Assembly: GCF_932294415.1 (NCBI RefSeq)
Contig: NC_065539.1
Coordinates: 53,959,501 to 54,023,500 of the forward strand
Reading direction: 5' to 3'
Length of the DNA: 64,000 nt
Source of the DNA: Quercus robur
Taxonomy: Eukaryota > Streptophyta > Magnoliopsida > Fagales > Fagaceae
A model generated the notes under the pieces. It was not told the DNA's origin. It ran no database searches and saw only the letters and a list, made by a program, of their open reading frames with translations. This document shows positions 9,206-46,528 of this stretch, in pieces. Numbering within the stretch: the stretch's first letter is position 1; each line of letters begins with the position of its first letter. The translations under genes and the position numbers were made by a program.

Positions 9206-10585
9206 TTATGCATAGAATTGCTTCAGCCATTTCCCGTTTATGGGTTCTGTTAGGACTGTCCCATCTTCTTTGGCAAGGTAATAATACCCACTCTCATGAG
9301 CTGCATTGATGATGTAGGGTCCTTCCCATTTTGGGGTGAACTTGGAAGGCCCTGGCAGGTTCCTCCTCACGTGCTCTGCCATCCTTAGTACTAATTGCCC
9401 TTCAGTGAACACTCTTAGGCGTACTGTTTGTGCATATGCTCTGGTCATTCTTTGTTGGTATCTCTGGCTCCTTTTCTTGGCCAGCTCTCTTTCTTCTTCT
9501 ACCCCTTCCAGATCTGCTAACCTCTTTTCATTGTTTGCGTCCTCACTTTCTCCTTGATTTTCCTCCAGAATTACCCTTGGTGTAGGAATGACTAACTCCA
9601 CGGGGCTGATGGCTTCTGTTCCATAGACCAGGGAGAATGGGGAAAATCTTGTGGCTGTCTTTACAGAGCTTTTACATGCCCAAAGCACATCTGCCAGATG
9701 GTCACTCCATTTCCTTCCATACTCATGCTTCATTTTCTTAAGGATCTTCAACATTACCCTATTAGTAGCTTCAGCTTGGCCGTTTCCTTGTGGGTAATAT
9801 GTGGTAGATCTTCTATGCTTGATGTGGTATGCTTCAGTTAATCCCTTCATATCTTTGTTTATGAATGGGGTTCCATTGTTACTGATCAATCTTCTGGGGA
9901 TCCCGAACCTTGTAATGATGTGGTCTTGAATGAAATTTACCACAGCTGCTCCAGTAGCTTTTTTCAAGGGGATGGCCTCTACCCATTTTGTAAAGTACTC
10001 CGTGGCTGCCAGGATCCATATATAACCGTTGGATGGAGGGTTTATAGGCCCTATGAGATCGAGCTCCCAAGTATGAAAAGGTCATGGCGTCGTCATATCC
10101 TGTAGGACATTTGGATGAGTGTGAATTGCATCTCCCAGGACTTGGCAAGCATGACATGTTTTGACCAGCTCCTCAGAGTCCCTTTTCATCGTTGGCCAGT
10201 AATATCCCAACAACAGTAACTGCTTATACAGCCTTCTTTTCCCTGGGTGACTTCCACAATCTCCAGAGTGTACCTCTCTGACTACTTCTCTAGCTTCCTT
10301 TGGTCCCAGGCACCTGAGGGGATCCCCATGGTATCCCTTTTTGAATAAAATGTCATTATGCAGGAAATACCTGCACACTAACTTTTTGAGTTTGTGGGCC
10401 AGTTTCCTGTCGGTTGGCAAGATCCCCTGAGCCAGGTATCCTATGAAAGGAACTCGCCAATCTTCTGCAATAAACACCGCGTAGCTTTCTTCTTTATCAA
10501 TTGCCAAACGACATTCCTGGCATTTCCCCTGTATGATTGCTGCTTCCTTGTCCATATCTGGCCAGTAATACCCCATGCGTTGCAT
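9206..10585 (-). pseudogene. Inner element integrase region, fossil
   Basis: The segment encodes the HHCC zinc-binding part (HSGDCGSHPGKRR, CHACQVLGD), the integrase core (with IRLISNNGTPF-like and HRRSTTYYPQGNGQAEATNR motifs) and a C-terminal domain with the WEGPYII motif typical of Ty3/gypsy. It lies at the 3' end of pol, as expected. It is broken within the region. Confidence 0.85.
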
Positions 10586-10589
10586 CCTT

Positions 10590-11744
10590 CTATATAGACT
10601 GACCTTTTCTGCAACTCCACATACTTGGGCGTAATTCTTCTAGTTTCGACTTTCCTTCCTTCTCGGTGATACATCTGGACAGTATCCCTCCTGGCAGCCT
10701 TCTATACAATTCTCCTTCTATCTGAGTGTAATCCATTAGTTCTTTGATGTTCCCTCTAGGACCTACCTCTTTCATCTTTTCTTTGACTTCGTCCCTCCAG
10801 TCCCACTGTTTGGACTCTCCGGGGTACATCCCTTGGAGGATCCTTACAATAGAATGTTCCTGCCTTCCTATTTTTATCAGCGTATCCCTCCCATTAAATG
10901 GTATTTGGGATCCCAGGGTGGCGAGCGCATCAGCAAACCTATTTTCACTTCTTCGAGTGTATTCTATGCTGAAGGTGTGAAATTTCATCTCCAGCCTTTG
11001 TGCCCAAGTCCTGTAGGCTGCTAAGCTTTGTTCCCGTAATGTAAAGTCACCTTTCACTTGGGAGACTACAAGATTGGAATCTCCCAACACTCTCATATGT
11101 TTCACTCCTATGCTGAGTGCTATATTCAACCCAGTTAAGTATGCCTCATATTCAGCTGCATTATTAGAGCATGAGAAACCAAGCTTGAAAGACAGGGGCA
11201 TGATATCCCCATTTTCACAGCTTAGTACAATTCCTACCCCATTTGAAGTTGCTGTAGCCGACCCGTCAAACCTCATGGTCCATTTCTTCCCTAGGATCTC
11301 CATCACTGCTACCTCACCAGGGATTTCTTCGCTCAGCGGGCCTTCCTCCTTTCCTAGGAATTGAGCTAGCAAATCTGCTATTGCCTGGCTTTTGACAGCC
11401 TTGGGAGTTCTTATACCTATATCATATTGTGAGAGCAACACTAGCCATTGTGCTATCCTTCCTGTGAGAAGGGGCTAGTGCAGGAGCGCTTTTATGGGGT
11501 GGGACTTGGTTACCAAGAGGATTTGGTGAGCTGAGAAGTACCTCTTCAACCTTTGGGATGCATAAATGATCACTAGGCAGGCTTTCTCTATTCTGGGGTA
11601 CCTGGTCTCGATATCCTTGAGTGTTCTACTTACATAATATACAGGCTGCTCATTTCCTTAGTCATCTTCTTGTGCCAGCAAAGCTCCTATTGCCTGAGAG
11701 TTTGATGCTAAGTATAGCAACAGAGGTCGCCCACGTACTGGTAC
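10590..11744 (-). pseudogene. Inner element RNase H plus second (archaeal-type) RNase H, fossil
   Basis: The segment contains a remnant of the RT-linked RNase H and then a second RNase H domain (MRFDGSATATSNGVGIVL, NNAAEYEAY, LGDSNLVVSQV, NRFADALA). A doubled RNase H is a hallmark of the plant Tat lineage and supports that placement over Athila, CRM, Reina or Tekay. It is broken. Confidence 0.8.
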
Positions 11745-12911
11745 CTAGAGGGTGGGCAGATGATTCATGATGCTCTGAATTCTTTGAAAAGCTTCCTGCT
11801 GCTCTGTCCCCCAGGTAAATTCATTCCCCTTTTTCAACAGTTTGGATAGGCCTGCGGTAGCTGAGGCTAAACCAGGCACAAATCTCCTAATATAGGAGAC
11901 CCTTCCCAGGAAGCTTTTGAGTTCCCTAACAGTAGTTGGTCTTCTCATCGTGGCGATAGTTGTGGCCTTGGCTGGGTCCACGCTTATGCCTTTGTGATGT
12001 ACCAGGAACCCAAGGAACTTTCCAGCAGACACTCCAAAGGCGCACTTCATGGGGTTCATACGTAACTTGTACTTCCTGTATCTTTCAAAGACTTGCTCAA
12101 GTACTTAGAAATGTCCTGTTTTGGTTTTTGACTTGACCACAATATCATCTACATAATCTTCCATCTCCTCATGCATCATGTCATGGAAAATGGCTGTCAT
12201 GGTCCGCTGATATGTAGCCCCCGCATTTTTTAGGCCAAAGAGCATTATAGTGTAGTAAAAATTCCCAATCGGAGTTCTGAATGCCGTCTTCTCTGCATTT
12301 TTGGCTGCCATGTGGATTTGGTTGTATCCACTGTACCCATCCATAAATGAGAACATTGAGTTTCCTGTAGCTGAATCTACAAGGAGGTCGATATTGGGCA
12401 AGGGGAATTCATCTTTAGGACATGCCTTGTTCAAGTTACGAAAGTCTACACAGCAACGGATCTAACCATTTTTCTTCTTCACAGGTACAATGTTGGAAAG
12501 CCATTTTGGGTGTTGGATGGGTTTGATAAAACCAGCTATTAGCAATTTCTTGACCTCTTGAACTATTTGAGCTTCTACCTCAGTGTGGAAGACCCTAGCT
12601 GGTTGGACTACTGGCCTCATTCCTGGGTCCACATTAAGAGAATTGACTACCAACCCTAGGTCTAGACCAGGCATCTCATCATAGGTCCATGCAAACACAT
12701 CTCTGTATTTTTGAAGCAAGGTTACCAGTTGTTCTCTTTCTTGAGCCACCAATTGACTGCTAATGAAGACAGGTTTTCGGGATCCTGGTTCTGTCCCCAA
12801 ATCTATTTCCTTTAATTCTTCCTCAGGCTGAATCTGGGCCTCTTTAACTGGTTCTTCTGGGATTACTTCTTGGGCCATCATGCAGCTTGGTGGTCCGGGA
12901 CCTTCCTGCAC
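11745..12911 (-). pseudogene. Inner element reverse transcriptase region, fossil
   Basis: The region encodes LNKACPKDEFPLPNID-type fingers, an FSFMDGYSGYNQI motif, GLKNAGATYQR and the catalytic YVDDIVV motif, followed by the thumb/connection part. This is typical Ty3/gypsy reverse transcriptase. It is broken. Confidence 0.88.
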
Positions 12912-12935
12912 AATGCATTCGGGTCCCGCGCACCT

Positions 12936-13718
12936 TCACAAACGATAGATCAGCCTTCCTCCAGGTTCCCGCACCACCACACATTCTCGGGATCCTGAAG
13001 AGCTGGGCTCCCTCTTTTGTCTTTTTCTTTCTAGAAGGTTCCTCAGGTCACGGGTGCCTCTTCCTCCTTCTTCTTCTTTTTCTAGGATAGGTGCCCTTAG
13101 GGTCCCTGGGGCGGGGTTCTCATCATCTAGCTCCAACTCATCATAAAACATTGTTTCTGCAAAGTTCACTTCTCCCTGGCTGAAAGGATTATGGTTGGCA
13201 GGGATCCTTATGGGCCTTCCATTCAGTCTCCCTTTAATGCATTGATGGAACGTGGATGGAATAAGGTGATGTTTATGAAGCCACGGGCGTCCCAGCAACA
13301 CGTGATAAGAAACTTCTGCATTAATCACATGAAACCTTGTCAAAGCTACTATTGGCCCTACCCTTAAGGCTAGCTGCACGTATCCTTCTGTTGATTCCAC
13401 CGATCCTCCAAATCCTATTATTTCCATGGGAGCCCCCAGGATCCTTCTGTCAACTAAGCCAACAGCTTCCAGGGTACTCAAGGCTATGAGATTGAGTGAT
13501 GCCCCCGTATCCACCAGTGCTCTTCTGACTTGAACGCCGTTTATGGTGGCCATTATATAAAGGGGTCTACGGTGGTCTGGGTGCTCAATCTCCATGTCTT
13601 CATCAGTGAAGGTTATTGCATTGGTTGTCTCCAGGAAAGCTCGACTAGCATGTGACTCAGCTGTAAAGCATTCCATCCCTGAATCTGCTGCTATGCTCAT
13701 GAGAGACTCTGTGGCCAC
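12936..13718 (-). pseudogene. Inner element aspartic protease region, fossil
   Basis: The region encodes the active-site motif ALVDTGASLNLI, a downstream IIGFGG and the LLGRPWLHKH motif seen in retrotransposon proteases, then an acidic linker toward RT. It lies between gag and RT, as in Ty3/gypsy pol. Confidence 0.85.
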
Positions 13719-13778
13719 CCTTCTTGCTTCTGGTCCGAATCCTAATTGATTGAATAATGACCTGAACTTAGGATTCTT

Positions 13779-15059
13779 CTAGAGGGTCCTGACTGTGCTC
13801 GGGTGGAAGGATCCTTTAGATTCTCCTGCTTCTGCCAGGTTCCCATGTATTACTACTGCTACCACCCCTTTTCCTTTGTGGTTAGGCAAGGGGTTCCTCT
13901 GCACTTCCGACTCCTTCTGAGTGAGCTCCAGGGTTCCTTCTCTCAACTTTTTGTGGAAGAGTCTGCGAAGGGTCCAGAAATCCTTGGTGGAGTGCTTGAC
14001 ATAATTATGGATTCTGCAAAATAAAGGGTTCTTCCTTTCTTCTTCAGTTGGTGGTCTGGACACAGTGAATGGCTTAACAACCCCATCTCCAATCCATTTG
14101 TCTAGGACATGGCTTAACTCCTCAGCTGTACATGGGATCACTGGTGGTTCCTCGAACACCTTCCCATCTGGTCTCTTCCTTTTCTCTCCTACTGATGCTG
14201 TCATAGCTTGGGATGCGGGCAGCCTTTTTGTCCTCATGGTTTGCGCTGTCCTTCTAGTTCTCTGTAACAGGTCAGCAAACTACGCGATACATAGGTTTTC
14301 AAGGTTGAGCCTATAATCAAAAAGCATGTTGGCTATACAGGTTTTCACGAGCTCCTTTTCTTCATGGTCCCCATAGCAGTCTAGGGACACATCTTCAAAT
14401 CTTTCGATGAATTGAACAGGATCTTCTCCAGGTCTCTGCCTCACCATTTGCAGATTCTAGAAAGTGATTTTGTCTTCACCAGGGTAATATTTGGCGCAGA
14501 ATTTTTTCATCATCTCATTCCAGGTTTTGATGGACCCGGGTCTCAGCGTGGTGTACCAAGTGTATGCCCTATCCACTAAGGATTTGGCGAATTCCCTCAG
14601 ACATAATTCTCTGTCTCCTGCATAGGGGCCCATAGTGTGAACAAACCTACTCACATGTTCCACGGCACTTCCGTTCCTCCCATCGAAAGGATGGAACTTT
14701 GGGGGTTCGTACCCCTTAGGGCATGGTTTGCCAAGAAGTTCTGGAGGGAACGGGGGATCCCGAGAGAATTGCTTGGGGATCCCTGAGAGTTTTTCCCTTT
14801 CTTGCTCCAGAAAGACATTGACATCTGCCAGTGTTAAGTACTGAGGGTTGGCTCTTCCTCCCACTGCTGACCCTCCTTCTGGCTGCGTCCCATCTTGGTG
14901 GCCAGTAGGGGGAACATTGTCTCTGATTTCCTGTGTCCTGCCCTCTTTGAGAAGACGAACTTCTTGCTCCAGATCCTTTAACATTGCTGTCATCCTGGCC
15001 ATGAGGTCTGGTTTCTGCCTTGCGTGTCTTTGTTCTGACACAACCTCCTGTTCTACCAA
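13779..15059 (-). pseudogene. Inner element gag region, fossil
   Basis: The upstream part encodes a coiled N-terminus and a capsid-like segment with PPKFHPFDG, a LREFAKSL motif and RAYTWYTTL, matching the plant retrotransposon gag family (PF03732). The downstream part contains a CRIHNYVKHSTKDFWTL motif, a degenerate zinc-knuckle-like element common in Tat gag proteins. It is broken. Confidence 0.8.
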
Positions 15060-15205
15060 GGGTATCCCACCTCCTTACCTGGAAGCTACCTCGTTTTCTC
15101 CTACGGGCTCAGAGGCCGTAGGTGGCACATTAGTTCCTTTGCTGTTTCTTTGTCTTGGAGGCATTCTCTGTGAAGGGGTTGCTTCTTCCTTCTTCTTTGC
15201 CCAGT

Positions 15206-15222
15206 CCCCAGTGGAGTCGCCA
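15206..15222 (-). other. Primer-binding site of inner element
   Basis: Minus-strand TGGCGACTCCACTGGGG lies three bases inside the 5' LTR. It resembles the site I remember for Tat/Ogre elements (complementary to tRNA-Arg). The tRNA assignment is from memory. Confidence 0.65.
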
Positions 15223-15225
15223 AAA

Positions 15226-16486
15226 TGTGAGAGTGCCTTTTTCGTGACACTCAGGCCCAAGGATCTCGGGCCTAAATGAAAAGGAGGATTTGGTGGACCG
15301 GGTCTTGACTCACCGCAGCTAACGAGCTGTTTAAGAATTAAGTGAAATGCAGAGAATACTCCTGACAATATAAAGAAAATGACAAACAAGGATATCAAAG
15401 AGTGCTAAAAATTAACAAGGTAAATTCAGAAGGAAAGAAACAGGATTAGCAAAGCGATAAAAATTAGTGCTGTGGGGATCCTGGGAAATATGAAACAATG
15501 TTTCATTAATACATTATCTGTTTGATTACAGAAAGCTCACTAGGACGTGATACAAGGTTCAATCAAGCTCAAAAATTGCAGTCTTGAATGACTATTTCAG
15601 CCTTCAAAACTTGCAAAGTTTGATTCTCGTTGAATCCGAGTATGTGCAATAATGGCTTTTACAGGATACCGGGAAGCAATATTTGTTTTTCCCTTAATAT
15701 TTTCTCTTCACTCTTGATTTTTCTGATAGTTTTTCTAGAGAATTTCTTCTTTCTTATCTTTCTCACTTTTTCGCTGCTTCCTTCTTCACAACCCATCCCC
15801 TCCTTTTATAATGGAGTTTTCTGGGCTTCCTGGGGAACCATTGGTTCCCCTGTTTTGCTCTTTTGCAAACAGAGTATGTCCTGTCCCCATCGTCTCGGTA
15901 AGTCCCTTTTCCGTTTCTTCTCATTCTTTCCTTCTCTCAGTTCTGATTCTTTTGAAAGCTTCCGGTTGGCCATCTTCTTTGGGACGTGCTGAGGTATGCC
16001 CTTCTCGGCATCCCCATTTCTGGCATCTTTCACTTTTCCTTTTCTTTCCTATTTGGGCGGAATCCTGTTCTGCCATTTTTGAAAGTCGTTTGTTAGCATT
16101 CTTCTTCCCTGTCTTGGTTCCCCGAGGCCTTTTCTGTCTATGCCATGAGAGGTCACTCGCGTTTTGCTTTTATTTCTTGTTTTCTTCTTCTGTCTTCTTT
16201 CTATCGATCTGTCCCATTCTTCCTTTTTCTTTGTGCCTGAAGGGATCCGTGCTTATTGATGGTTCCTGAGGATCCTTGCTTCTTATACTTTGCCGTGGTC
16301 CTCTTTTTTTTTGGATGCTTCTTTTTTCTGGGCTTCAAGATCCTCTGGGCCTTTCTTTTATTCCCTCATGGGTCTCCCGTATCTATTTCTTTGGGCTCAG
16401 CTTGAATTTTCCTTTTGGGCTGGACTTGTTCTTTTTTTGGGCTTATTTCACTATGACCCCCTTTTTTTTTTTTATAGACCTCAACA
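15226..16486 (-). repeat. LTR of inner element (5' LTR in coding direction)
   Basis: Partner of 2673-3930, directly followed by the ctatt target duplication at 16487-16491. The minus-strand TATA-like box seen in the other copy is kept near 15803-15813. Confidence 0.95.
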
Positions 16487-17032
16487 CTATTTCATAATTT
16501 TTTGGCCGTCTAACCAAGCATTTTTCTCTTGTAGGCCATGTCCAAATTCATCGCAGCTTCTAGGCAGGCCACTAAGTTGGACAAGACGAGAATCTTACTG
16601 GAGACGACCATCTAAAATGTGAAGGATGAGAGTAAGAAATGGGTTGGGATAGCTGCTGAGGCTAAGGAGAAGGCAATAGAGCATCAAAACTTAATCAAGG
16701 AGTTGAGAGCTGATATAGTGGAGAAAGATACTTGTCTTGATCATATTCAAAAGAAGAACGACGAGTTGAGTACTCTTCTCTCCAAGGCTAAGGAAGATGT
16801 CGTTGCGGAGTTCAAGGCGTCCAAAGAATTTACGAACTTATTGGATCGCAACTACGCAGTAGGTTTCGAGGATTTCAGGTTGGACGCTGTTGAAAACTTC
16901 CCTGAGGTGGACTTCAGCTCCATAAAGCTTAATTTGAATGCTGCTACCAATTCTCTTCTCCAAACCAGCTCCGAGGACGTTAACATTGAGACGATGCCTC
17001 TACCCAGCCATCCAAAGAAGATCCCAAGTTAG
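16487..17032 (+). pseudogene. Antisense extra gene of outer element, 3' part (coiled coil), fossil
   Basis: After the target duplication, a pyrimidine-rich stretch ends in TTGTAG near 16534, a good splice acceptor. The following open region encodes a Lys/Glu-rich helical segment (for example IQKKNDELSTLLSKAKEDVV) and ends at TAG near 17030. It has the same strand and composition (frequent GACGAG) as 1048-2640, so both are parts of one antisense gene separated by the nested element. Confidence 0.6.
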
Positions 17033-18067
17033 ACGCCCCCCCTGCTTAAGGACGTCTTTACAAAACTATATTTTTCCTTTTCTGTATAGTCCTTTGTTTT
17101 GGGACCTTTTTATGTAACTCAAATACATTAAGCTTGTCCATGGTTTTAGGACGAGTCATAAGGGTGTTTGGACGTTGGTCGTCCGCCCTTAAAACAATTG
17201 AATGAATGCAATTATTTCTTTCATACATGCATGAACGAAACTTTTCATTTTCATATACAAGATTTCATGCTTGACTCATCCATATCTTATATATGTACTT
17301 TACCATTTTTATTGGAACTTCACCAAATGTAATTTGTTTATAAAATGGTAATTACTCGTCCTTGGACTAAGCTGGTTTCCATATTTAATGGGGATGAGAC
17401 ATGTACCCTGCTCGCCCATGGATTGGGTTTTAGCACAAAACACTCGTCTATGGATTTTCTCGTCCATGGTCTGGACGTGCATGATGCTTTACTTCGCCCA
17501 TTGTATAGACGAGTATGCCTTGGGCTCCTTGGCTTGTTCAAGTTATAGGCTCTACTTCGTCCTTTGATCTGGACGAGGGGGCCTTGATCTTGCTTTACCT
17601 TTATGGACGAATACGCCTTAGGCTTGCTCAAGGTATTGGCTTTACATCGTCCCTTGATCTGGACGAGGGTGCCTTGATTTTGCTTTACCCTTAGGAAAGC
17701 TTAGACGTTACATCTCCGCATCCAGAGAATTTATTCATCTTACTAAAAATTTTGTTTTTAGCCACCTTGTGGGTTAGCTTTGAACGAGAATAGCATGGAG
17801 ATTTAAAATTCACACAACATTTTGTACATAACATAAATATCGTTTACAGATAAGGCACATACATACTAATGCCTTTTTATTTAATAAGTACTCCATAACT
17901 TCATCCATAACCATGACACAACATTATAAACAATAAAGTAGTAGTATCAAACACAAACAACATCAAATATAAGTAGTAGCAAACACACAGCATCAAACAT
18001 AAGTAGAACATGAGTAGACGGACAAGGTCCAAGCTTGTCCATAGTAATACTTCGTCTAGGATCACTT
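17033..18067. other. Non-coding interval of outer element with local repeats
   Basis: This lies between the converging antisense gene and integrase. Around 17548-17700 there are two imperfect copies of a segment with CTTTGATCTGGACGAGG and CCTTGAT.TTGCTTTACC. GACGAG/CGTCC words are frequent. No conserved protein was recognised. Confidence 0.5.
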
Positions 18068-19320
18068 TTATTGATAGTATCTCCTCAGGTGCTTCACATT
18101 CCAAGAATGTTCCAATTTTCTCCCGTCCAGGGCCTCCAAGTAGTAGGATCCTTGCTTTTTACAGTTGATAACTCTATAGGGTCCTTCCCAATTTGGGCCC
18201 AATTTCCCATGTGCTAGGTTTTTGGTTGCCAAAGAGACCTTTCTCAGGACAAGATCTCCTATGTTGAAACGCCTTGGCTTCACCATTGCATCGTACTGCC
18301 TAGCCATAAGGCTCTTGTACTTTGCTGCCTGTGCTCTGCATCTGCCCTTACCTTGTCTATCAGATCAAGGTTCAAATGGAGTTGCTCCTCATTATCCTTG
18401 TCTTGATACATCATCACCCTGTGATTGGTCATATGTACTTCCGCAAGTATGACTGATTCGCTTCCATAGGCTAGCTTGAAAGGAGTTTCCCCCGTAGGGG
18501 TTCTCACTGTGGTCCTGTACGCCCATAGAACACCTGGTAACTAACCTGACCATACTCTCTTTGCCCCCTCAAGCCGAGTCTTGATGATTTTCAACAAGGA
18601 TCGGTTTGTAACTTCAGCTTGGCCGTTGGCTTGGGGGTGTGCAGGTGAGGAATAATGATTCTGAATTCCAAAGTGTATACAAAAGTCCCTGAAGAGTGCA
18701 TTGTCAAATTGTTGTCCGTTATCAGACACCAATACCTTAGGCACTCCAAATTTACACACAATGTTCTTCCACATGAAATTTTTTACATTCTATTGTGTGA
18801 TATTTGCTAACGATTCAGCTTCCACCCATTTGGTGAAATAATCGATGCCCATCACTAAAAACTTCATCTGCCTTGTGCCTAGAGGGAAGGGACCCAAAAT
18901 GTCTAGTCCCCATTGTGCAAAGGGCCACAGTGCCATCATCGGGGTGAGGTACTCTAATGGTTGTCTGGGGACGTTACTAAACCGTTGGCATTGGTCACAG
19001 ACCTTGACGTATGCTTTAGCATCAGCTTGCATATTTGGCCAGTAATACCTTGCATGGACGACCTTGTGGACAAGTGACTTGGCTTCTGAGTGATTGCCAC
19101 CCACTCTCTCATGAACTTCTCTCAGTACGTAGTTTGTTTCGTCCGGAGCCAAGCATCTAAGATAAGGTTGAGAAAAACCTCTCTTGTATAGCACTTTGTC
19201 CATAAGAATGTACCTAGCCGATCTCACCCTCAACTTCCTGGCTTCGTCCTTCTCTTCTGGTAGTCGTCCATCTCTCAAGTATGATATAATCAGGGTCATC
19301 CAATTTCCTCTGCTCTCCAC
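18068..19320 (-). pseudogene. Outer element integrase region, fossil
   Basis: The region shows HHCC zinc-binding motifs (HERVGGNHSEAKSL, CDQCQRF), the core motifs WGLDILGPFP and VLVSDNGQQFDN, HPQANGQAEVTNR, and a C-terminal WEGPYRVI motif. It is broken in several places. Confidence 0.87.
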
Positions 19321-19323
19321 CTG

Positions 19324-20290
19324 TTATACTTCTGGGATATCTATACTTGGCATATACTGAACTTCATCAAATTCATCCATAGATTCATTTGCTAAGGCTA
19401 CTTTTACTATGGTATTAGCTTCCACGTTCTCCTCCCTTAGGATTTGAACAAAGTCAACCTTTTCAAATCTTTTCATAAGGCGGATCACCCTACTAAGGTA
19501 TTTTCTCATCCGTTTTTCCTTTGCCTCATACATCCCATTTACTTGCCCCATAACCAACTGAGAATCCCCCAAGACGAGTATAGACTTGGCTTCCACAGAC
19601 TTGGCTAATTCTAGCCCTTTGAGAGGGGCTTCATACTCGACTTCATTGTTAGTTGCTTGGTACTGCAGACGAACCTTATGTTTCAGTTTGTCTCCTTCTG
19701 GGGATTGTAGGACCACACCAATTCCACCTGCATGCCGTGTAGACGAACCATCCACATGGACAACCCATCTCTTACTGTCCTCTGTCTCATCATGATTTGC
19801 GGTAAACTCCGCAATGAAATCTGCTAGTGCTTGAGCTTTTATGGCATGCCTTGGTTGATATCTAATGTCAAACTCACTGAGCTCTACAACCCACTGGATC
19901 AATTGTCCTGCAGCTTCTAGTCTATTCATCGCCTTCTTGAGTGGATGATCTGTCATGACATTAATGACATGTGCTTGGAAATAATGCCTCAGCTTCCTGG
20001 AAGCAGTGATCAATGCAAAGGCTAATTTCTCCATTTGTGGATACCGTCCTTCCGCTCCCCTCAATGCCTTACTCGTATAGTACACAAGTCTTTACACTTA
20101 TCTTCTTCTCTGATCAATGCTGAACTCACGGCATGCGGGGTTGCTGCTAAGTATAAATACAACTCCTCTCCCACCACGGACGGACTCAGTAATGGAGCCA
20201 TGGTAAGGTATGCCTTCAAATCTTCGAAAGCTCTCTGACACTCATCGGTCCATTCGAATGCTTTTCTAAGAACCTTAAAAAATGGCAAAC
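19324..20290 (-). pseudogene. Outer element RNase H and second RNase H, fossil
   Basis: The RT-linked RNase H shows YYTSKALRGAEGRYPQMEK and a MTDHPLKK motif. A second RNase H follows (WVVHVDGSST, GGIGVVLQSPEG, LGDSQLVMGQVNG). The dual RNase H arrangement again indicates the Tat lineage. Confidence 0.85.
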
Positions 20291-21000
20291 ATTTGTCAGT
20301 GGTTTTAGAGACAAACCTGTTAAGTGTGGTAACTCATCCAGTGAGGGTTGGATTTCTTTGGTATTTTGCGGAGGCTTCATGTCTAGTATTACTTGAATTT
20401 TATCAGGATTCACTTCAATTCCCCTGTGGGAGACCATAAAGCCAAGGAATTTCCCTAATGATACTCCAAAAGCACATTTGCTAGGATTCAGTTTCATGCG
20501 ATACTGTCTTGGTGTGTCAAATGTCTCCTGCAGGTCGTCTAGATGCCTACCTTCATCCTGACTCTTCACTAGCATGTCATCTACATAGACTTCCATATTC
20601 CGCCCAATCTGCGGACGAAACATGTGGTTGACCAATCTCTGATATGTCGCCCCTGCATTCTTTAAGCCAAATGGCATTACCTTATAACAGAATAAGCCTT
20701 GACTGGTGACAAAGGATGTTTTCTCTTGGTCTGCCTCGTCCATCCTTATCTGATTGTATCTAGAAAAAACATCCATGAAACTAAGCAATTTGTGGCCCGT
20801 AGTAGAGTCTACCAACTGGTCAATGCGTGGCAACGAATAACTATCCTTGGGGCAAGCCTTGTTTAAGTCAGTGAAATCTACGCACATTCTCCACTTGCCG
20901 TTTGCCTTTTTGACCATTACTACATTGGCCAACCAATCCGGATAGTACACTTCGAGAATAAACTTCACCACAATCAACTTTTGGACTTCGTCTTTGATAG
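20290..21000 (-). pseudogene. Outer element reverse transcriptase region, fossil
   Basis: Encodes VMVKKANGKWRMCVDF, LNKACPKDSYSLPRID, LLSFMDVFSRYNQIRM, MPFGLKNAGATYQRL and the catalytic YVDDMLVKS, all standard Ty3/gypsy RT motifs. Confidence 0.9.
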
Positions 21001-21799
21001 CATCATCCCTCTCAGGGGCAAACACCCTCTTCTTTTGTCGCATTGGCTTGGAGGAAGGATATACATTCAGAAGGTGGGTAATAACACTAGAGTCTATACC
21101 CGGCATGTCCTCATGACTCCAAGCAAACACATCAATATTTTTCTTCAAAAACTGGACGAGGTCCTTCTTAATCTTCTCCTCTAGATCTGCTCCAACCCTG
21201 GTACACCTCTTAGGGTTATTGTCGTCCAAGAAAATATCTTCCAATGCTTCAGTAGGCTCTACTACAACTCTCTTTTCTTCAATATTCATGGCTTGAACTT
21301 GTTCTTCCATGGCCAACATGGCCAGGTAACATTCCCTTGCTACTAGTTGGTCTCCTTGTACCTGCCCTACTCCGTGTTCTGTTGGAAACTTGACTGATAG
21401 GTGGTAAGTAGAGGTAACAGCCTTCCAACTATTTAAAGTTGGTCTTCCAATTATGGCGTTGTAAAAGGATGAACAATCTACCACAAGGAAGTTCACATCC
21501 TTGGTGATTTGTTGTGGGTATGCCCCCACTACCACTAATAAGGAAATAGTACCCACGGGTTGTACCTTCATTCCACTAAAACCTACTAGGGGAGAGTTTA
21601 CTGGACAGAGCTGGTCTCGTCCTAACCTCATCTGCTGAAAAGCTGGATAATATAAAATGTCCGTCGAGTTTCCGTTATCCACTAGGACTCTTCTAGTTGT
21701 GTAGCCAGCAATTAGTAAGGAGATGATGATAGCATCATCATGTGGGTGATGAATTCTCTTAGCGTCTTCGTCCGTGAAGGTGATCGCTTGTTCATCCAT
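21001..21799 (-). pseudogene. Outer element protease and linker, fossil
   Basis: Contains a retropepsin-like segment with RRVLVDNGNSTDILYY (the DNG form of the active site is common in this plant lineage) and a downstream YNAIIGRPTLNSWKA motif, then an acidic linker running into RT. Confidence 0.75.
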
Positions 21800-21817
21800 G
21801 GACCTTGCTCTCGGAGA

Positions 21818-22990
21818 TCATCCAGAAAGTTGAACGCTCTGCACTACCTTCAAGTATGCTTTCTTGGACTTAGACGACTGGCCTGTCGAGCTTCCCCCTA
21901 TAATGACTCTTATTTCTCCGAGCGGTGGTCGCAATGATTCTTCCATCTTTCCTTTCAGTTTCTCGTCCCTGTGGTCTCGTCCAAGGAAATTCCTCAACTT
22001 CCCTTGCCTTATGAGACTTTCAATTTGCTGCTTTAAATCAAAACACTCGTCTGTATTATGACCAAGATTCCTATGGAAGCGACAATACTTGTTCCTATTG
22101 CGCTTATTGGGATCTCCCTTCATTTTCTCCGGCCACTTCAAGGAAGGATCATCCTTGATTTGCATAAGGACCTGCTCAAGTGGCATATTCAAAGGGGTAT
22201 ATTACTGGTTCGGTGTTGAAGAGCCTGGCTTCTTATTATCTCGGTCTTTCCTTTCTTCCGTCTGTCCCTTCTTTGAACGAGAGCCTTGCTCAGGATGGCG
22301 ACTAGGGTTTGCCTCTACTCTCTCAGATCTCTTCCTCTTCTTAGCAATGATCGCGTCTTCTGCGTTCATAAAATTTTGAGTCGAATGGATAAGTTCGGCC
22401 ATGGACTGTGGCTCTTTTTCATAGAGTTTATGTATAAACAAATCCGAATTCACCCCATTATGGAAGGCCGCCAATAGGAGCTTGTCATCTGCTTCGTCCA
22501 CACTCAGGGCTTCTCTGTTGAAACGGGTGATAAACGACCGCAAGCTCTCGTTCTCCCCCTGCTCTATGGTCAACAAGTTGGACGAGGAACGCTTGTGCCT
22601 CTGTCCGCCAATGAAATTATTAACAAACAACTTGCTCAACTCTTCAAAAGAACTTACCAAATTTTGGGGTATTTTGTTGAACCAAACTCGTGTTGGGCCT
22701 ATGAGGGTAGTAGGGAAGGCTCTACACATTATTTTGTTGGACACCCCTTGAAGATGCATGGTGGTCTTAAAGGTGGCGATGTGATCAAACGAGTCGAGTG
22801 TTCCATTATACGAATCCAGAGAAGGCAACTTGAACTTTGATGGTAGAGGGTGACCGTTGATGGAAGCCGTAAAGGAGGAATCAGTTCTGTGAACCAAATC
22901 TTCTATTGGATTTGCCCTTCTCATATTCTCTTTCATTTCCTCCATGACTTTCTTCATTTGGTCCATCTCTTTTTTCAAGTGTGGTACCAT
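21818..22990 (-). pseudogene. Outer element gag region, fossil
   Basis: The capsid-like part encodes FKLPSLDSYNGTLDSFDHI and MCRAFPTTLIGPTRVWF, matching retrotransposon gag (PF03732). It is followed by a Lys/Arg-rich stretch and a degenerate zinc-knuckle CRFHRNLGHNTDEC. It lies in the expected position next to the 5' leader (22991-23310). Confidence 0.85.
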
Positions 22991-39488: not shown

Positions 39489-42078
39489 ATGCTGGCTGTT
39501 TTTGACAAATCTGTGGCCAAGAGTCCCGAGGCTCTTCAGAGTCCTCAATCGGGATCGGTTTCAACTTTGAAAGATGGGTTTTTGGCCAACCACTTTGGCT
39601 CTCTCCACCCTGGTTCTGTCAGTGTCAACCTCGCCTCTTCGGGCCTCATTGCCTACTCGCTCCAAAATAAGAACCCACTCCTACCCAGGTATTCTACAAT
39701 CCCATTTCTCTTACGCACCAAGAAACTGAAAATATGGTGTATCCATCTTGTGTTTTTTCTTGGTTTTATGATTTTTGGGTTGTTCTGATCTTGGTGATTC
39801 TTGGGTCTGTTTGGTTTTTGGCGAGAAATGGTAGGAAAAAAGTAAGGAAAGTTGGGGGTTTTTTATCAGAGGATCTTGGATTTTATGTTGGGTTTGTTTT
39901 ACTTTGTTTGGTTTATCATTAGTTACAAAATGACAATTACCTTTTTTGACTGATGTTTGGTGATCTTTAAACTATTTTGTTTTTTAATTTTTGGATGGAT
40001 TAGATAGGATTTGAACCTATGGCATCTATTCTATGATGATCGCTTGCTCTTTATAATTAGGCCAAGATATACCGATTGATTTTAGTGTAGGCAGGATTCG
40101 AACCAGGACTCTTATTCAATGACAAGAGAGGAGATAACTGGAATCCACTTAGAAAAACCTAAGTTTTAGCCTTTTAGGTTATTACTTCATCGATCTAGGT
40201 GTCCTTGATCCTGTGAGTTGTGGCTGCAAGTGTTAATGCTTCGTTTGGTGTCTAAGAATATTAGGAAAGAATCACAATCTTGAGGGGTTTGCTTTGAATT
40301 TGCTGTTGTTAGATTTTGTGTCTAGAACTTTTGGCAAACAGGGCCCGCCTGCATTCTTTACAACATCAATCTCGTGTTTGATCAGTGTTTCTATCATCAG
40401 AGTTATTCAATCAAATTTTAATTCTGAATGTTTTGAGAGCTATATGTGTGTGTGTGTGTGTGTGTGTGTATTTTATGGGTCGTGTTTGTCTTAATGGCAT
40501 ATAATTCAAATGTAAAGATTTTATTTTGTCTTCAGTTTCATGTCTCAATAATGATTTTGATATGAGACAACGGATTGATTTAACTCTTAGGCTATGGTCA
40601 TTTTTGTTTTTCTAATATGTTTGCAATTCTTTAGAACATTTTTGAATGTCCAATGGAATTAAATTATTCTATGAATGTTCTACACAACATTTAAATTGAC
40701 AAACATTTCTTTTCTGGAGGTTTTAAGGGCTCCTTTTTTCTTGCACAAGATATTATTTGCATATTGTGGTTTCTTGTTAACTATGCTTTTGTTGGTGTTG
40801 TGGCTTCTATATTATTTTGTAATTTGGACATTCTAAAACAGTGTTTTGGTTTCACATCCCATTGAAGAACCACATGTATAATTTCTGCTGGACTTCTGTT
40901 GATCTTGTTTTCCAGTGTTATTTTTTCACTGCATCTAAGTTTTTGGTCTTTATCTTGACGATCTCTTTTCAGTTTTTTGTTGGCACATAAAATTAATTTC
41001 TGATATTAACAAATCATACTGTCAGATTGTTTGCAGTGGTCGACGACATTTTCTGCTTGTTTCAAGGTCACATTGAAAATGTTGCGCAGCTTAAGCAACA
41101 ATATGGATTGAACAAAACCGCAAATGAGGTGGTCATTATTATAGAAGCTTACAGAACTCTGCGAGATAGAGGTCCTTATCCTGCCGACCAGGTTGTGAGA
41201 GATATCCATGGGAAGTTTGCATTTATTCTCTATGATAGCTCTTCAAAAACCGCATTTATAGCTACTGTGAGTATATTGTTCTTCCTAAAATGATTTGCTC
41301 CATGTTTTGGGCACCTCTTAATTCTATCTTGTTTCTTTGTAATGATCATCATTTGCTTTACTGGAGCTAATTCTACTTTCATCTTATGCAGGATGCTGAT
41401 GTAAGTGTTCCCTTCTTCTGGGGTACTGATTCTGAAGGCCATCTTGTTCTTTCAGATGAGGCAGAAATTGTGAAGAAGGGCTGTGGGAAATCTTTTGCAC
41501 CATTTCCTAAAGGTATATGTTTTACCATGTTAGGGAAATGGTTGCCCTCATGGAGTGGTTATTTAGGATTCTTTTTGCTTTTCTTAATGATCCAGATGTC
41601 AAAATTTTTGGTTTTAAAATATGGGGGATAAAAGCTTATGTGAGCTTTAGGTATGTGGGTGATATCAAATTGCCATAGCAAGAACAAGCTTCAAAATCTA
41701 CTTTCTAATCGACTGATTTTCCCATTTATTGACCACATTGGTTTAAAAAAAATTAGGACTTGTTTTGATTTTGTGTAATTATTAGCATGAACTTCCAGAT
41801 ACTAATACTATAGTCTATCTGTTTGATATTACTTCATGAGCATGACTACTAGCTTGCTGATTTCTCTATTTCTGTTGTTTTCCAAAGGATGCTTCTTCAC
41901 ATCGTCTGGAGGCTTGAGGAGTTATGAACACCCCCTTAATGAGGTGAAGCCTGTGCCAAGGGTGGACAGTTCTGGTCAGGTGTGTGGTGTAACTTTCACT
42001 GTGGATGAAGAGTCGAAGAGGGAAACTGTCGGCATGCCAAGAGTTGGAAGTGCTGCCAACTGGTCATCTAACTACTGA
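39489..42078 (+). CDS. TSJT1-like / aluminium-induced protein (DUF3700, YGL and LRDR motifs)
   Basis: Four exons (39489-39688, 41026-41266, 41392-41512, 41888-42078) give 250 residues, matching Arabidopsis AT5G43830 in length and sequence (from memory). The family has a class-II glutamine-amidotransferase-like (Ntn) fold and is induced by metals, sugar starvation or hormones; no enzymatic activity is established. Visible hallmarks are the start MLAVFDKSV, DDIFCLFQGHIEN, YGL at 93-95, LRDR at 112-115, HGKFAFILYD and GCFFTSSGGLRSYEHP. All four exons join in frame and all introns are GT..AG. Intron 1 (39689-41025) carries a GT microsatellite at about 40445-40469. The gene converges with DMC1, with stop codons 745 bp apart. 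It looks intact. Confidence 0.92.
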
Positions 42079-42591
42079 TATCGTTATAGTTTCCTTTTAC
42101 AGCATGGCTGTCATTATTATTGGGCCTTGCTTTTGATCTCTTTTCCTCATCATACTACTCTCATCTTGAATGGCTTGAAAGCATTTTAATGGTGCTTAGC
42201 TTTATATCCTTTTTAGTACTACCAAAAGTAAGACATGATTTTATGCTGCTGTACATTTTGCGTAATGTCAAACTAAGCCAGGATCTCATGTTTGATACAA
42301 GAAATAATATGATTGCTCTTTAAGACTGATATTGTGGTAGATTTCTATTTGATATATTTCTCTATTTTTATCGCTTCTTGAATTAGGCTGTGATGATGAT
42401 AATAATTACGGTCACATTTGTTATGATAATAAAATCCATTTCTGAACATGGGGTCAGTTTCCTGTTCACGCAATAACCATTGCAAAGAAACAATGAAGTC
42501 CATTGATTTTTAATATGGCTACTATATTCACCAAAGAAGTTAAAGATGCTTCCGGAGCATAGTCCAGGGCAGCTAAAGCTCTTCAATGCTT

Positions 42592-42630
42592 TCATGAATC
42601 AGACCAACAGCTTGTTGGTCTGATTCATGA
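42592..42630. repeat. Perfect 18-bp inverted repeat between two convergent genes
   Basis: 42592-42609 and 42613-42630 are exact reverse complements around the 3-base loop gct. It sits in the shared 3' region of the TSJT1-like gene and DMC1, where it could fold in either transcript. Confidence 0.88.
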
Positions 42631-42803
42631 TTTACAACTTTAAAGTAAACTACAGTAAGTAGATATTAGGAAAATGTATATTCCACTATATTGCCACTTT
42701 TAGAGCCAACAGGTTATAGCATTCATGATTTACAACTTTAAAGTAAACTACAGTAAGTAGATATTAGGAAAATGTATATTCCACCATATTGCCACTTTTA
42801 GAG
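42623..42803. repeat. 98-bp-period tandem duplication beyond the DMC1 stop
   Basis: 42623-42705 and 42721-42803 are 83-bp copies with one mismatch, separated by 15 bp. The first copy starts within the right arm of the neighbouring hairpin. The second ends 20 bp from the DMC1 stop codon, so the duplicated segment probably belongs to the DMC1 3' UTR. Confidence 0.88.
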
Positions 42804-42822
42804 CTGCAGAAGGGCCGTAAGC

Positions 42823-45800
42823 TTAGTCCTTCGCATCTGCAATGCCCCCTGGTGTTATCTGAAATACGTGTTTCTGTTAAGATAAACTTGTTGGCACTGA
42901 AAAGTAGTTTTTAACAATTGATATGGAAGACACGGATTTCCTGATTTAGGATCACTTATCATGATGTCAGTTTTTAATTGATCTTTTGGGATTCCACTTG
43001 TCTCTCTCATGACCAGAAAGGTCACGATTACAGGATTGATTTTCCATGAAGGTTGATTCAGTCAATCGAAAATTTAAAAGGTTGAATTATAGTACTAGTG
43101 AAAAGGATATAGCTTCAGCCTCGGGCAGATTTGGGGCATCAAACACCTTGCAGACACGCTGTTCACCTTTGCCTTTCCTGAACATCAGTCTTATTGTAGC
43201 CGCATGAGCAAGCACATGCCCACCCGCTGGTTTCTTTGGATCCGATATGAACATTCCACCTCCTGGGTCAGCTATGACTGCAACCAACAGTCCAACAATA
43301 CGGTTCAGGATTGTCATGTTAAATTCACTTAAGAGTTACTGTAAAAATATTATAAATCAATATTGCTCGCTGATGCTTCATTGCATATATTTTGGGCCAA
43401 TACACTTACAATCTGAACTCAATTAGCCACATTCAAAAAAGAAAAGATCTTATTTATGTATTCCATTATTCTGAGTTTGCATTGAATATTATCTTGCTTT
43501 GCCTAGACAAGAATAATTAGAGACCAAATGAGCATACAGAAACTTGTGTCAGACTGGTTGGCGCTTACCTTGATTGGTCATGTAGACGGCAACATTAAAT
43601 TCCTCAGCTATCTTTGTTAATCTGGAGAGCATCTGTGCCAACTTTTGCTGCAAATTTACAAATGACTTTGTCATTCAAGAGTAATGGCATATATATATGG
43701 ACAGAAAGTTACATCAAAGGCATTGTAAGAATTTCTGAAGTTTAACCTGGCGCTCTGCAAGTTCTCCTCGTCCTGTGAAATCCACTCGAAAGAGTGCAAT
43801 CACTGAATCCACAATCTGACATAAAATGAATTCATGCAAACATCAAATCACTGAATCCACAATCTGACATAACGAATTCATGCAAACATCAACTCTCCAG
43901 GCCTCACAAAATTAGTAGTGTAGTTCTCTCAGTAAGACTCACCAGAAGTCTAAATGGTTCTTCAGCCATCTTTGCAGCCAAACCAAGAAGCAGGTTGTAC
44001 TGATGCTCGTATGTATATGCACGTGCATAAATGATCTAACACATTCACAGAAAACACAAAGTTAGCTTATATATGTGCTGTTCCTATTTCCATTGATATC
44101 TAATGCAATAAATGAAGCTTACATTGTCCAGGACAGATCCTGGATCCATGCCAAATCTTTCAGCTATGGGTACAATTCGATCAGGTCGGCTGAAAATTGA
44201 CATAGTTAAGAAGAAAACATACTAAAACACGCTTTTTATTTTTTATTTTTTATGATATTCTTGGTTAGATTTTTACTGAAAAGAAACTAAATATGCCAAT
44301 CAGATGTCAAAGCAAAATAAAACAGATAAAAAGGATACAAAGTTCCCTCAGTATCAATGTAAGCAACCTTTCCATTCCCTCCCCTCATGTTGGTAGGAAG
44401 CTGCCAAATTCATCAGCAAATCATCAGGATGCACAATCAGAAAAGCTTAATATTATTGAATCAAGTTTGTTATTATTACACAAAAATTTAAGGGCGGTAA
44501 CACAAGATTTTCTGTAATTGCTAATTTTTAATTGAGCAGCTTCAGGGGCTGTACATAATGTAGGCGTCAAATCAATAAACTTCACACATACTTGACATGC
44601 TGAAGTCTATAAACTATTATGTGCAAGTGCCCTCATTGTGTCCCACAGATTACTGATTTCTATTATAAAACATGTTTGAGATCATGCCTGAAAGATCATT
44701 AACATGAAGTTCGATTTCTTCAAAATAGAACACCCTTCACATAAAATATCACACTATCTCAGAGCTACTTTTAGGACCACTACATAGCATAGCCACTCTA
44801 TTCACAATTGTATAAGAGTACATGCTAGCTGAGAAAAGGAACCTGGGTAGAAACGCATAGAGTATGTGCAAGCTGTGTTTTCCCAGACCTGAATAGAGAA
44901 GTGGCACAATATAGAAATTTAAATGTTGTGTAAAGCCAAATCAGTATCAAGTTTCAATTGGAACAAACAACAGTAATTCATATACGTAAAATGTGCAATG
45001 TTCTCACCGAAATTCTCCAAAAGATTCAGTAATCGCCATTGTTTCAATTCCACCTTTTCAAATTTTTACACACAAATCAATTATAGATATATTTTTACAC
45101 ACAAAAACAATAATTCAGAGAATGAACATCTCAGAGCAAAGAATTACCGCCTAAGAGTTCATCTAAGGCTTGGCTTCCAGTTGTAATGCGGACCACTGCC
45201 TTTCTCTATAAGAAAAAATGAGAATCAGAATTTAGACTCACTGTCAAATATAATTAAAAGAACTGCTTAGATCTTATGATCTAATTTCAATTCAAAAAAA
45301 TTATAAATAAATTCAAACTTACTTTGAGAAGAGCATCGCTTCCAGTAATATAACCATAATTCTGAATAAAGAAACAAAGGAGCAATCAAAGTCACTGAAT
45401 CCAAAGCTAAAACTGATGAAAAAACAAAGCAATTACAGAGACTATGGATGATCTAAACGCTAACCACAATCTTCTCAGCGGCTTCACAGATTTTGTCAAC
45501 TTTGGCCTCAGATAAGCCTTTGATTCCAGTCAGGTGCTGCAAATTGGAGACAGATAGATCATAGAAACCAAACAGCACCAAAACCTTCACCGTCAAAAGG
45601 ATTTTTACATAAAATTAAGATATATACCTTCTTTGTATGCATCATTAAGCCATTGCAGGTGTAGATCCCTGCATCTTGAAGCTTCTTCACATCTCCGGAA
45701 TTGATTCCCTGAGCAATCACTGCAAAGAATGCACAGATTTTGAATGGAAACTAATAAGGAGTGACTTAAACCAATAAGAACTCAATGTTCTCGTCAATTA

Positions 45801-46149
45801 GGCTAAATTCGCTCATCTGATACGATAACAGAAGCAAAGAAACACAAAAAAATTAATAAGTAAATCCAGTGGTAACTTCAAATTCCTGAACAAGCTTGAA
45901 GGTGATTGAAGTGAGGCTACTCAAAATTTAGTCCAAACAGAGAGAAGGCAACTTCATATATGCACTAGAAATTCAAGTTCTACCATCATAAACAAAACGA
46001 TACACAGTGAATCAGACTTCTGCAATTCTCACAAAAGCAAAGCAAATTTCATTCAAAATCGAAACCAAACTATTAGAGGCATCAACACGCAAACAGAGCC
46101 AAACTGAGAATGAGATCATCCGAACTTTACAGAAAATTATAATTCAGAG

Positions 46150-46203
<54 letters not shown>

Positions 46204-46528
46204 ATTCAGAGTTTGTGAAAAAATCGAATTTCTAGTAAAACAACACGAAATCAGTGCAAAGGCACTCGGAAATCGAGAATGAAAGAAAAAAGCGAAGATT
46301 GCAGATCATACATTTGTCGATCGCTTCAAACAAATCTTCTTCGTCATCCATTTCTTCGCGCTCCATGAGCTGTAACTGGCCTTGATCTTCGGCTCTGAGA
46401 AAACATGATTCAGAAACAGAAAATCATGGTGACGATCAATACCTAGCTAGAATGAAGTTCAAAAAATCAAAGAGAAACGAAGAGGAAGAAGTGTACGGCT
46501 CTGTGACTTACTTGAGTGTTGCAATCAT
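42823..46528 (-). CDS. DMC1: Meiotic recombinase DMC1
   Basis: Fifteen exons on the minus strand: 46512-46528, 46312-46394, 45628-45719, 45465-45536, 45323-45361, 45148-45205, 45008-45053, 44843-44888, 44339-44400, 44123-44189, 43943-44035, 43747-43815, 43569-43647, 43111-43277, 42823-42867. They encode 344 residues, the length of Arabidopsis DMC1. The protein is a RecA/RAD51-family strand-exchange ATPase that pairs homologues in meiotic nuclei. Visible parts are an N-terminal helix-hairpin-helix region ([16 protein letters not shown]), Walker A GEFRSGKT (133-140), Walker B LLIVDS, GTFRPDRI, and [12 protein letters not shown] with a KPAGGH segment. The last 14 residues ([14 protein letters not shown]) are reached only through an AT-AC intron (42868-43110). 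Intron 9 is also U12-like. Intron 2 has a GA microsatellite. It looks intact. Confidence 0.95.
42868..43110 (-). other. U12-type AT-AC intron (last intron of DMC1)
   Basis: The intron begins ATATCCTTTT, the exact U12 AT-AC donor consensus, right after the codon GCT at 43111. It ends ...TTAACAGAAACAC before GTATTTCAG. A branch-site-like TATCTTAAC lies about 9 nt before the acceptor, within the short distance typical of U12 introns. Removing it is phase 0 and yields the conserved DMC1 C-terminus [13 protein letters not shown]. Reading through would instead end the protein after four or five aberrant codons. Confidence 0.92.
43798..43891 (-). repeat. Tandem duplication spanning the exon 12 acceptor of DMC1
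   Basis: 43798-43845 (48 bp) is repeated at 43846-43891 (46 bp, with a 2-bp difference and one substitution). Each copy holds the last bases of intron 11, TGTCAG, and the first 18 bases of exon 12, so the pre-mRNA has two near-identical 3' splice sites. Only the downstream copy continues into the intact exon. Confidence 0.85.
44190..44338 (-). other. U12-type GT-AG intron (intron 9 of DMC1)
   Basis: The donor GTATCCTTTTT matches the U12 GT-AG consensus (GTATCCTTT), and TTCTTAAC, a close match to the U12 branch site TTCCTTAAC, lies about 16 nt before the CAG acceptor. The intron is 149 nt and splits a Phe codon within EGTFRPD. Confidence 0.85.
46153..46197. repeat. GA microsatellite in intron 2 of DMC1
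   Basis: An uninterrupted 45-bp GA run (about 22 units). Confidence 0.95.

Follow-up and report, generated by a model that had tools for sequence, protein, structure and literature searches.

A predicted U12-type AT-AC intron at the end of a DMC1 gene, with a second candidate minor intron upstream

How does a DMC1 gene whose last intron begins with AT and ends with AC join its conserved C-terminus to the rest of the protein, and which spliceosome would have to remove that intron? The question is raised by a 64,000-nt stretch of DNA (the window) from what appears to be a plant genome. On its minus strand (46528..42823) the window contains a full DMC1 gene, which encodes a meiotic DNA-repair protein important for fertility; its 15 exons and 14 introns, with exon ends set by eye on the sequence and then checked by script, yield a spliced coding sequence of 1035 nt and a protein of 344 residues. 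GT-AG ends are found in 13 of the 14 introns, the exception being the AT-AC intron 14.

42823..46528, minus strand: DMC1 coding region, 15 exons, 14 introns, 344 aa, identified by its TIGR02238 and TIGR02239 scores
46528-46512, 46394-46312, 45719-45628, 45536-45465, 45361-45323, minus strand: DMC1 exons 1-5, from the 344-aa splice
45205-45148, 45053-45008, 44888-44843, 44400-44339, 44189-44123, minus strand: DMC1 exons 6-10, from the 344-aa splice
44035-43943, 43815-43747, 43647-43569, 43277-43111, 42867-42823, minus strand: DMC1 exons 11-15, from the 344-aa splice

Against the DMC1 equivalog TIGR02238 the protein reaches 556.6 bits, above the cut-off of 447.7, and against the RAD51 model TIGR02239 it reaches 430.5 bits, below the cut-off of 478.05; it is therefore identified as DMC1. 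Its closest solved structures are DMC1/LIM15 homolog chains, with an alignment that reaches the last residue; among the 50 listed PDB sequences (E up to 1e-60), every alignment extends to query residue 341 or further. The C-terminal tail itself aligns with that of human DMC1 (PENEATFAITAGGIGDAKE).

The original prediction placed an AT-AC intron at 42868..43110, with a U12-like branch site about 9 nt upstream of the AC. Both features were recovered at exactly these positions, together with the 344-aa protein that the splice produces.

42868..43110, minus strand: DMC1 intron 14, AT-AC, predicted U12-type, 243 nt, phase 0; its boundaries yield the 344-aa DMC1
43101..43110, minus strand: predicted U12-type 5′ splice site ATATCCTTTT of intron 14, 9/9 to RTATCCTTT
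42876..42884, minus strand: U12-like branch site TATCTTAAC of intron 14, 7/9 to TTCCTTRAC with an exact TTAAC core
42868..42869, minus strand: AC 3′ splice site of intron 14, from the 344-aa splice
43111..43277, minus strand: exon 14, ending ...PNLPEAEA, from the 344-aa splice
42823..42867, minus strand: exon 15, conserved tail and stop, from the 344-aa splice; tail aligned to human DMC1

Read on the minus strand, the end of the gene runs ...GAG GCT GAA GCT, then ATATCCTTTTCACT ... TTTATCTTAACAGAAACAC, then GTA TTT CAG ATA ACA CCA GGG GGC ATT GCA GAT GCG AAG GAC TAA, and the AC end of the intron leads in continuous frame into exon 15. The intron as a whole has the form ATATCCTTTT...ATCTTAACAGAAACAC and is 66.7% AT. 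Its donor is a 5′ splice site of the type ATATCCTT, agreeing with all nine positions of RTATCCTTT and with only two of the six of GTAAGT. The presumed branch adenosine, 42877, is 9 nt from the intron end, slightly below the 10-15 bases quoted in PMC2426677, and the branch site has an A at its upstream purine, in agreement with plant U12 introns, which are described as AT-rich with an A at this position (PMC5932401). The number of pyrimidines before the AC (9 of 20, with 8-17 in the other 13 introns and 8 in intron 6) is low but does not separate the two classes. The donor, the branch-like site, the AC end, the exact frame and a U12 snRNA gene elsewhere in the genome all support a U12-type reading of intron 14, to which intron 9 adds. 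Judged from the sequence, the last DMC1 intron is very probably a U12-type AT-AC intron excised by the minor spliceosome, with intron 9 as another U12-type intron, belonging to the GT-AG subtype.

AT-AC ends do not by themselves point to the minor spliceosome. Those introns of this kind that belong to the major (U2) spliceosome have an ATAAGT-like donor, whereas intron 14 has ATCC, not AAGT, after its first two bases. SYCP2, for instance, is a meiotic gene. Intron 5 of its human version is a U2-type AT-AC intron with the same ends as DMC1 intron 14 (PMC8280824), yet it is excised by the major spliceosome, while the donor of intron 14 is of the U12 type. Such introns do exist, then, but in the four plants listed in Table 2 of PMC7367187 their share of U2-type introns is 0 to 0.05%, while AT-AC ends are found in 13-26% of the U12-type introns there; a lower AT-AC share of 4.8%, from another survey, is quoted in PMC5932401. 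With a donor that matches GTAAGT at 2/6 and the U12 consensus at 9/9, intron 14 is extremely unlikely to belong to the AT-AC introns that the major spliceosome removes.

The same tail could also be reached from other splice sites. All pairs of donors from 60 nt inside exon 14 onward and acceptors at least 60 nt further were tried, and a pair was kept if the resulting protein ended in PGGIADAKD. This retained 1155 pairs of any dinucleotides, with 8 GT-AG and 12 GC-AG pairs. The conserved tail is in frame in four of the former and six of the latter, with residues before it lost, inserted or replaced in each (GC 43113 to AG 42874, for example, gives 345 aa). Only 43110/42868 gives 344 aa with an uninterrupted PEAEAVFQ among the GT-AG, GC-AG, AT-AC, AT-AG and GT-AC pairs. 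The earlier claim that this splice alone yields both the conserved tail and 344 residues thus stands for the length, which is unique among the tested end types, and falls for the tail, which those GT-AG and GC-AG pairs preserve as well. Nor would a predictor limited to GT-AG necessarily lose the last exon, as had been proposed, since it could call a protein of 351 or 346 aa; such gene callers may misplace the DMC1 C-terminus.

43094..43095, minus strand: competing GT (ctaGTACTATA), pairing with AG 42874 (351 aa) or AG 42859 (346 aa)

These two calls are also the form in which the major spliceosome might join the tail by an ordinary GT-AG splice: GT 43095 is in frame with both AG 42874, which places ISFSLKH before VFQITPGG, and AG 42859, and the tail is wholly or mostly kept. 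The ISFSLKH insertion, however, would fall within the segment that aligns gap-free to human DMC1. The consensus for major-spliceosome donors is CAG/GTAAGT, against which CTA/GTACTATA reads as a poor donor, AG 42874 ends only 3 nt past 42877, the putative branch A, and a 9/9 match to the U12 donor would have to be explained as coincidence. A GT-AG splice of this kind is accordingly considered very unlikely.

AG 42859 could alternatively be paired with the U12 donor itself, giving an in-frame AT-AG product of 341 aa without VFQ, and AT-AG minor introns are known (PMC8280824). Yet its use would delete an F common to human DMC1 and stretch the distance from branch to intron end to 18 nt, with the AC at 9 nt encountered earlier. 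The chance that this is how the intron is normally spliced seems close to negligible, though the 341-aa product could occur as a minor isoform. Hardly more credible is a normally retained intron 14, in which case the frame would stop after 7 codons and produce a 337-aa protein with a changed tail, and, this being the last intron, no junction would presumably lie downstream; the intact in-frame DMC1 tail in the downstream exon suggests instead that exon 15 is used. For comparison, retention of intron 9 would end the protein at 188 aa.

The U12-type reading of intron 14 gains from intron 9, on which the original prediction was silent and which, as far as its sequence can tell, strengthens the U12 case for DMC1.

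44190..44338, minus strand: DMC1 intron 9, GT-AG, predicted second U12-type intron, 149 nt, phase 2, donor 9/9, branch 7/9
44329..44338, minus strand: predicted U12-type 5′ splice site GTATCCTTTT of intron 9, first 9 bases 9/9 to RTATCCTTT
44205..44212, minus strand: predicted branch site TTCTTAAC of intron 9, 16 nt before the intron end

Intron 9 splits the codon of the F in DTEGTF-RPDR and shows the features of the GT-AG subtype, i.e. an GTATCCTT donor in the form of GTATCCTTTT and a U12 branch site CTTCTTAAC (7/9, exact TTAAC core) 16 nt from the AG end. The last exon base is a T before both intron 9 and intron 14; because PMC7367187 describes the preference for T at this position as confined to those U12-type introns that have GT-AG ends, the observation bears on intron 9 alone. 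By these sequence features, DMC1 would hold two U12-type introns, one per subtype (AT-AC and GT-AG).

How far such matches could arise by chance differs between the elements. Introns 9 and 14 match RTATCCTTT at 9/9, the other 12 DMC1 introns at 2-6/9. With the first two bases given, a 9/9 donor is expected with a probability of about 1.1e-4 per intron, and two among 14 with about 1.2e-6, using a first-order background from the other 12 DMC1 introns and treating the consensus as fixed beforehand. The branch sites of introns 9 and 14 match their consensus at just 7/9 each, and this match is weak by itself: introns 4 and 13 also reach 7/9, yet at 30 and 26 nt from the intron end. Among random tails, 4.4% have a branch-like site of at least 7/9 at 8-18 nt, and 0.9% have one with the exact TTRAC core, a condition picked after the sites had been seen.

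In the window, RTATCCTTTT occurs three times where 0.78 occurrences are expected, a count reached in 4 of 100 shuffles, and two of the three copies coincide with exon ends of DMC1, at introns 14 and 9. It is this placement that is informative; that the motif occurs in the window says little by itself. The third copy, ATATCCTTTT at 42204-42213 on the plus strand, is located 3′ of a convergent gene that was read by eye on the same strand at 39489-42078 and that we take to be TSJT1-like; this copy is probably due to chance. TTCTTAAC is not enriched in the window (4 against 4.14 expected), and genome-wide ATATCCTTTT is common, with 2609 + 2624 places, though below the 4713 + 4046 of its reversed control. 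Pairing energies between the intron ends and the genome's own U12 element did not discriminate among the 14 introns (intron 9 ranked 9, intron 14 joint 12), probably because the method scores a short duplex with a bulged A poorly.

Besides the sequence elements, the frame and the protein seen at DMC1 itself, the genome contains a U12 snRNA gene at C37:60111674-60111825 on the minus strand.

L009 1501-1652, minus strand: U12 snRNA gene with USE-like and TATA elements upstream

The gene scores 97.6 bits against an Rfam cut-off of 53, with no such match in 14 control genomes, and was the 1 match among 44 scored of 74519 first-look candidates, meaning that the genome has at least one U12 snRNA gene. 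It retains UGAGUAAGGA, the element of U12 snRNA that pairs with branch sites, and is preceded by a USE-like GTCCCACATCG and TATAAA, which we take to fit a plant snRNA promoter. Within the 64,000-nt window, Rfam at gathering scores gave no match.

In introns of this class, the donor is bound by U11 and then U6atac and the branch site by U12, after which an AC (A-type) or AG (G-type) end is used. From the elements at DMC1 we infer that the splice sites are used and depend on U11/U12, and likewise any effect on meiosis. At intron 14, U11 and later U6atac would pair with AUAUCCUU at the donor, U12 would pair with AUCUUAAC and bulge an A (presumably 42877), and the AC 9 nt beyond this branch A would serve as the 3′ splice site, joining EAEA to the exon 15 tail. 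A full-length DMC1 message would then need two minor-spliceosome reactions, one per subtype.

Neither the AT-AC U12-type intron class nor its clustering within genes is new, and DMC1 is a further case that holds no surprise in principle. U12-type introns cluster within genes in 21 of 21 genomes tested (PMC7367187), and two of them in DMC1 therefore fit the proposed reading. The position of intron 14 as the last intron, in turn, runs against the trend in PMC2426677, according to which the 5′ portions of genes hold most U12 introns and their 3′ portions are where U12-to-U2 conversion is concentrated. A close parallel is intron 4 of plant CBP20, which like DMC1 intron 14 has AT-AC ends, a U12 branch site and an AT-rich sequence and is present in all ten plant species compared; unlike DMC1, however, CBP20 is a cap-binding protein, and its intron 4 divides core from tail (PMC5932401). 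The intron class is also shared with the U12-type introns of ~230 Arabidopsis genes such as QQT1, as would presumably be the dependence on U11/U12-31K, 48K and 65K, which are required for most of the U12 introns examined in that species (PMC5853960, PMC4892727). In their accounts of Arabidopsis U12 introns, these two papers describe no meiotic phenotype. Subtype-specific dependence is known from human cells, where depletion of CENATAC affects 92% of A-type minor introns versus 24% of G-type, the former including introns with the AT-AC ends of DMC1 intron 14 (PMC8280824). DMC1, RAD51 and At3g22880 are absent from the main text of PMC4892727 and PMC2426677, as are DMC1 and RAD51 from that of PMC7367187. 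Among the papers that searches of the open literature brought up, none deals by title or abstract with a minor, AT-AC or non-canonical intron of plant DMC1; plant U12 intron catalogues, which lay outside this search, may list the gene already.

Should splicing follow this reading at both introns, each message of a core meiotic recombinase would depend on the minor spliceosome two times, once for either subtype. One could then ask whether DMC1 lies behind any fertility defect of a plant minor-spliceosome mutant, and distinguish AT-AC-specific factors from general ones inside a single gene. A bolder idea, which we regard as unlikely, is that its two minor-class introns make DMC1 a point at which the activity of the minor spliceosome sets meiotic recombination. 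On this view the protein would be truncated (188 aa) if intron 9 were retained, whereas a message that kept the last intron would give a stable, near-full-length DMC1 of 337 aa with a swapped C-terminus, a possible regulatory or poisoning isoform under weak minor splicing. Work cited in PMC7367187 speaks against slow minor splicing as a limit on DMC1, since it found that the removal of U12-type introns is not so slow that expression would be much affected.

Several repeats lie in and near the gene. A 48-bp tandem duplication (window 43798-43892, minus strand) spans the boundary of DMC1 intron 11 and exon 12 and creates a second acceptor, GTCAG/ATTGTGGATTCAGTGATT, with an exon start at 43863; its use would lengthen the message by 48 nt and, through the in-frame TGA that they contain, stop the protein at 231 aa. 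Just past the DMC1 stop, at 42623-42804, are two 84-nt copies that are 99% alike and 98 nt apart from start to start, perhaps within the 3′ UTR of the gene, and a (GA)n microsatellite of 22.5 copies occupies 46153-46197 within intron 2. Farther away, at 9206-22990 of the window, the ORF listing contains minus-strand reading frames that resemble fragments of Ty3-type retrotransposons.
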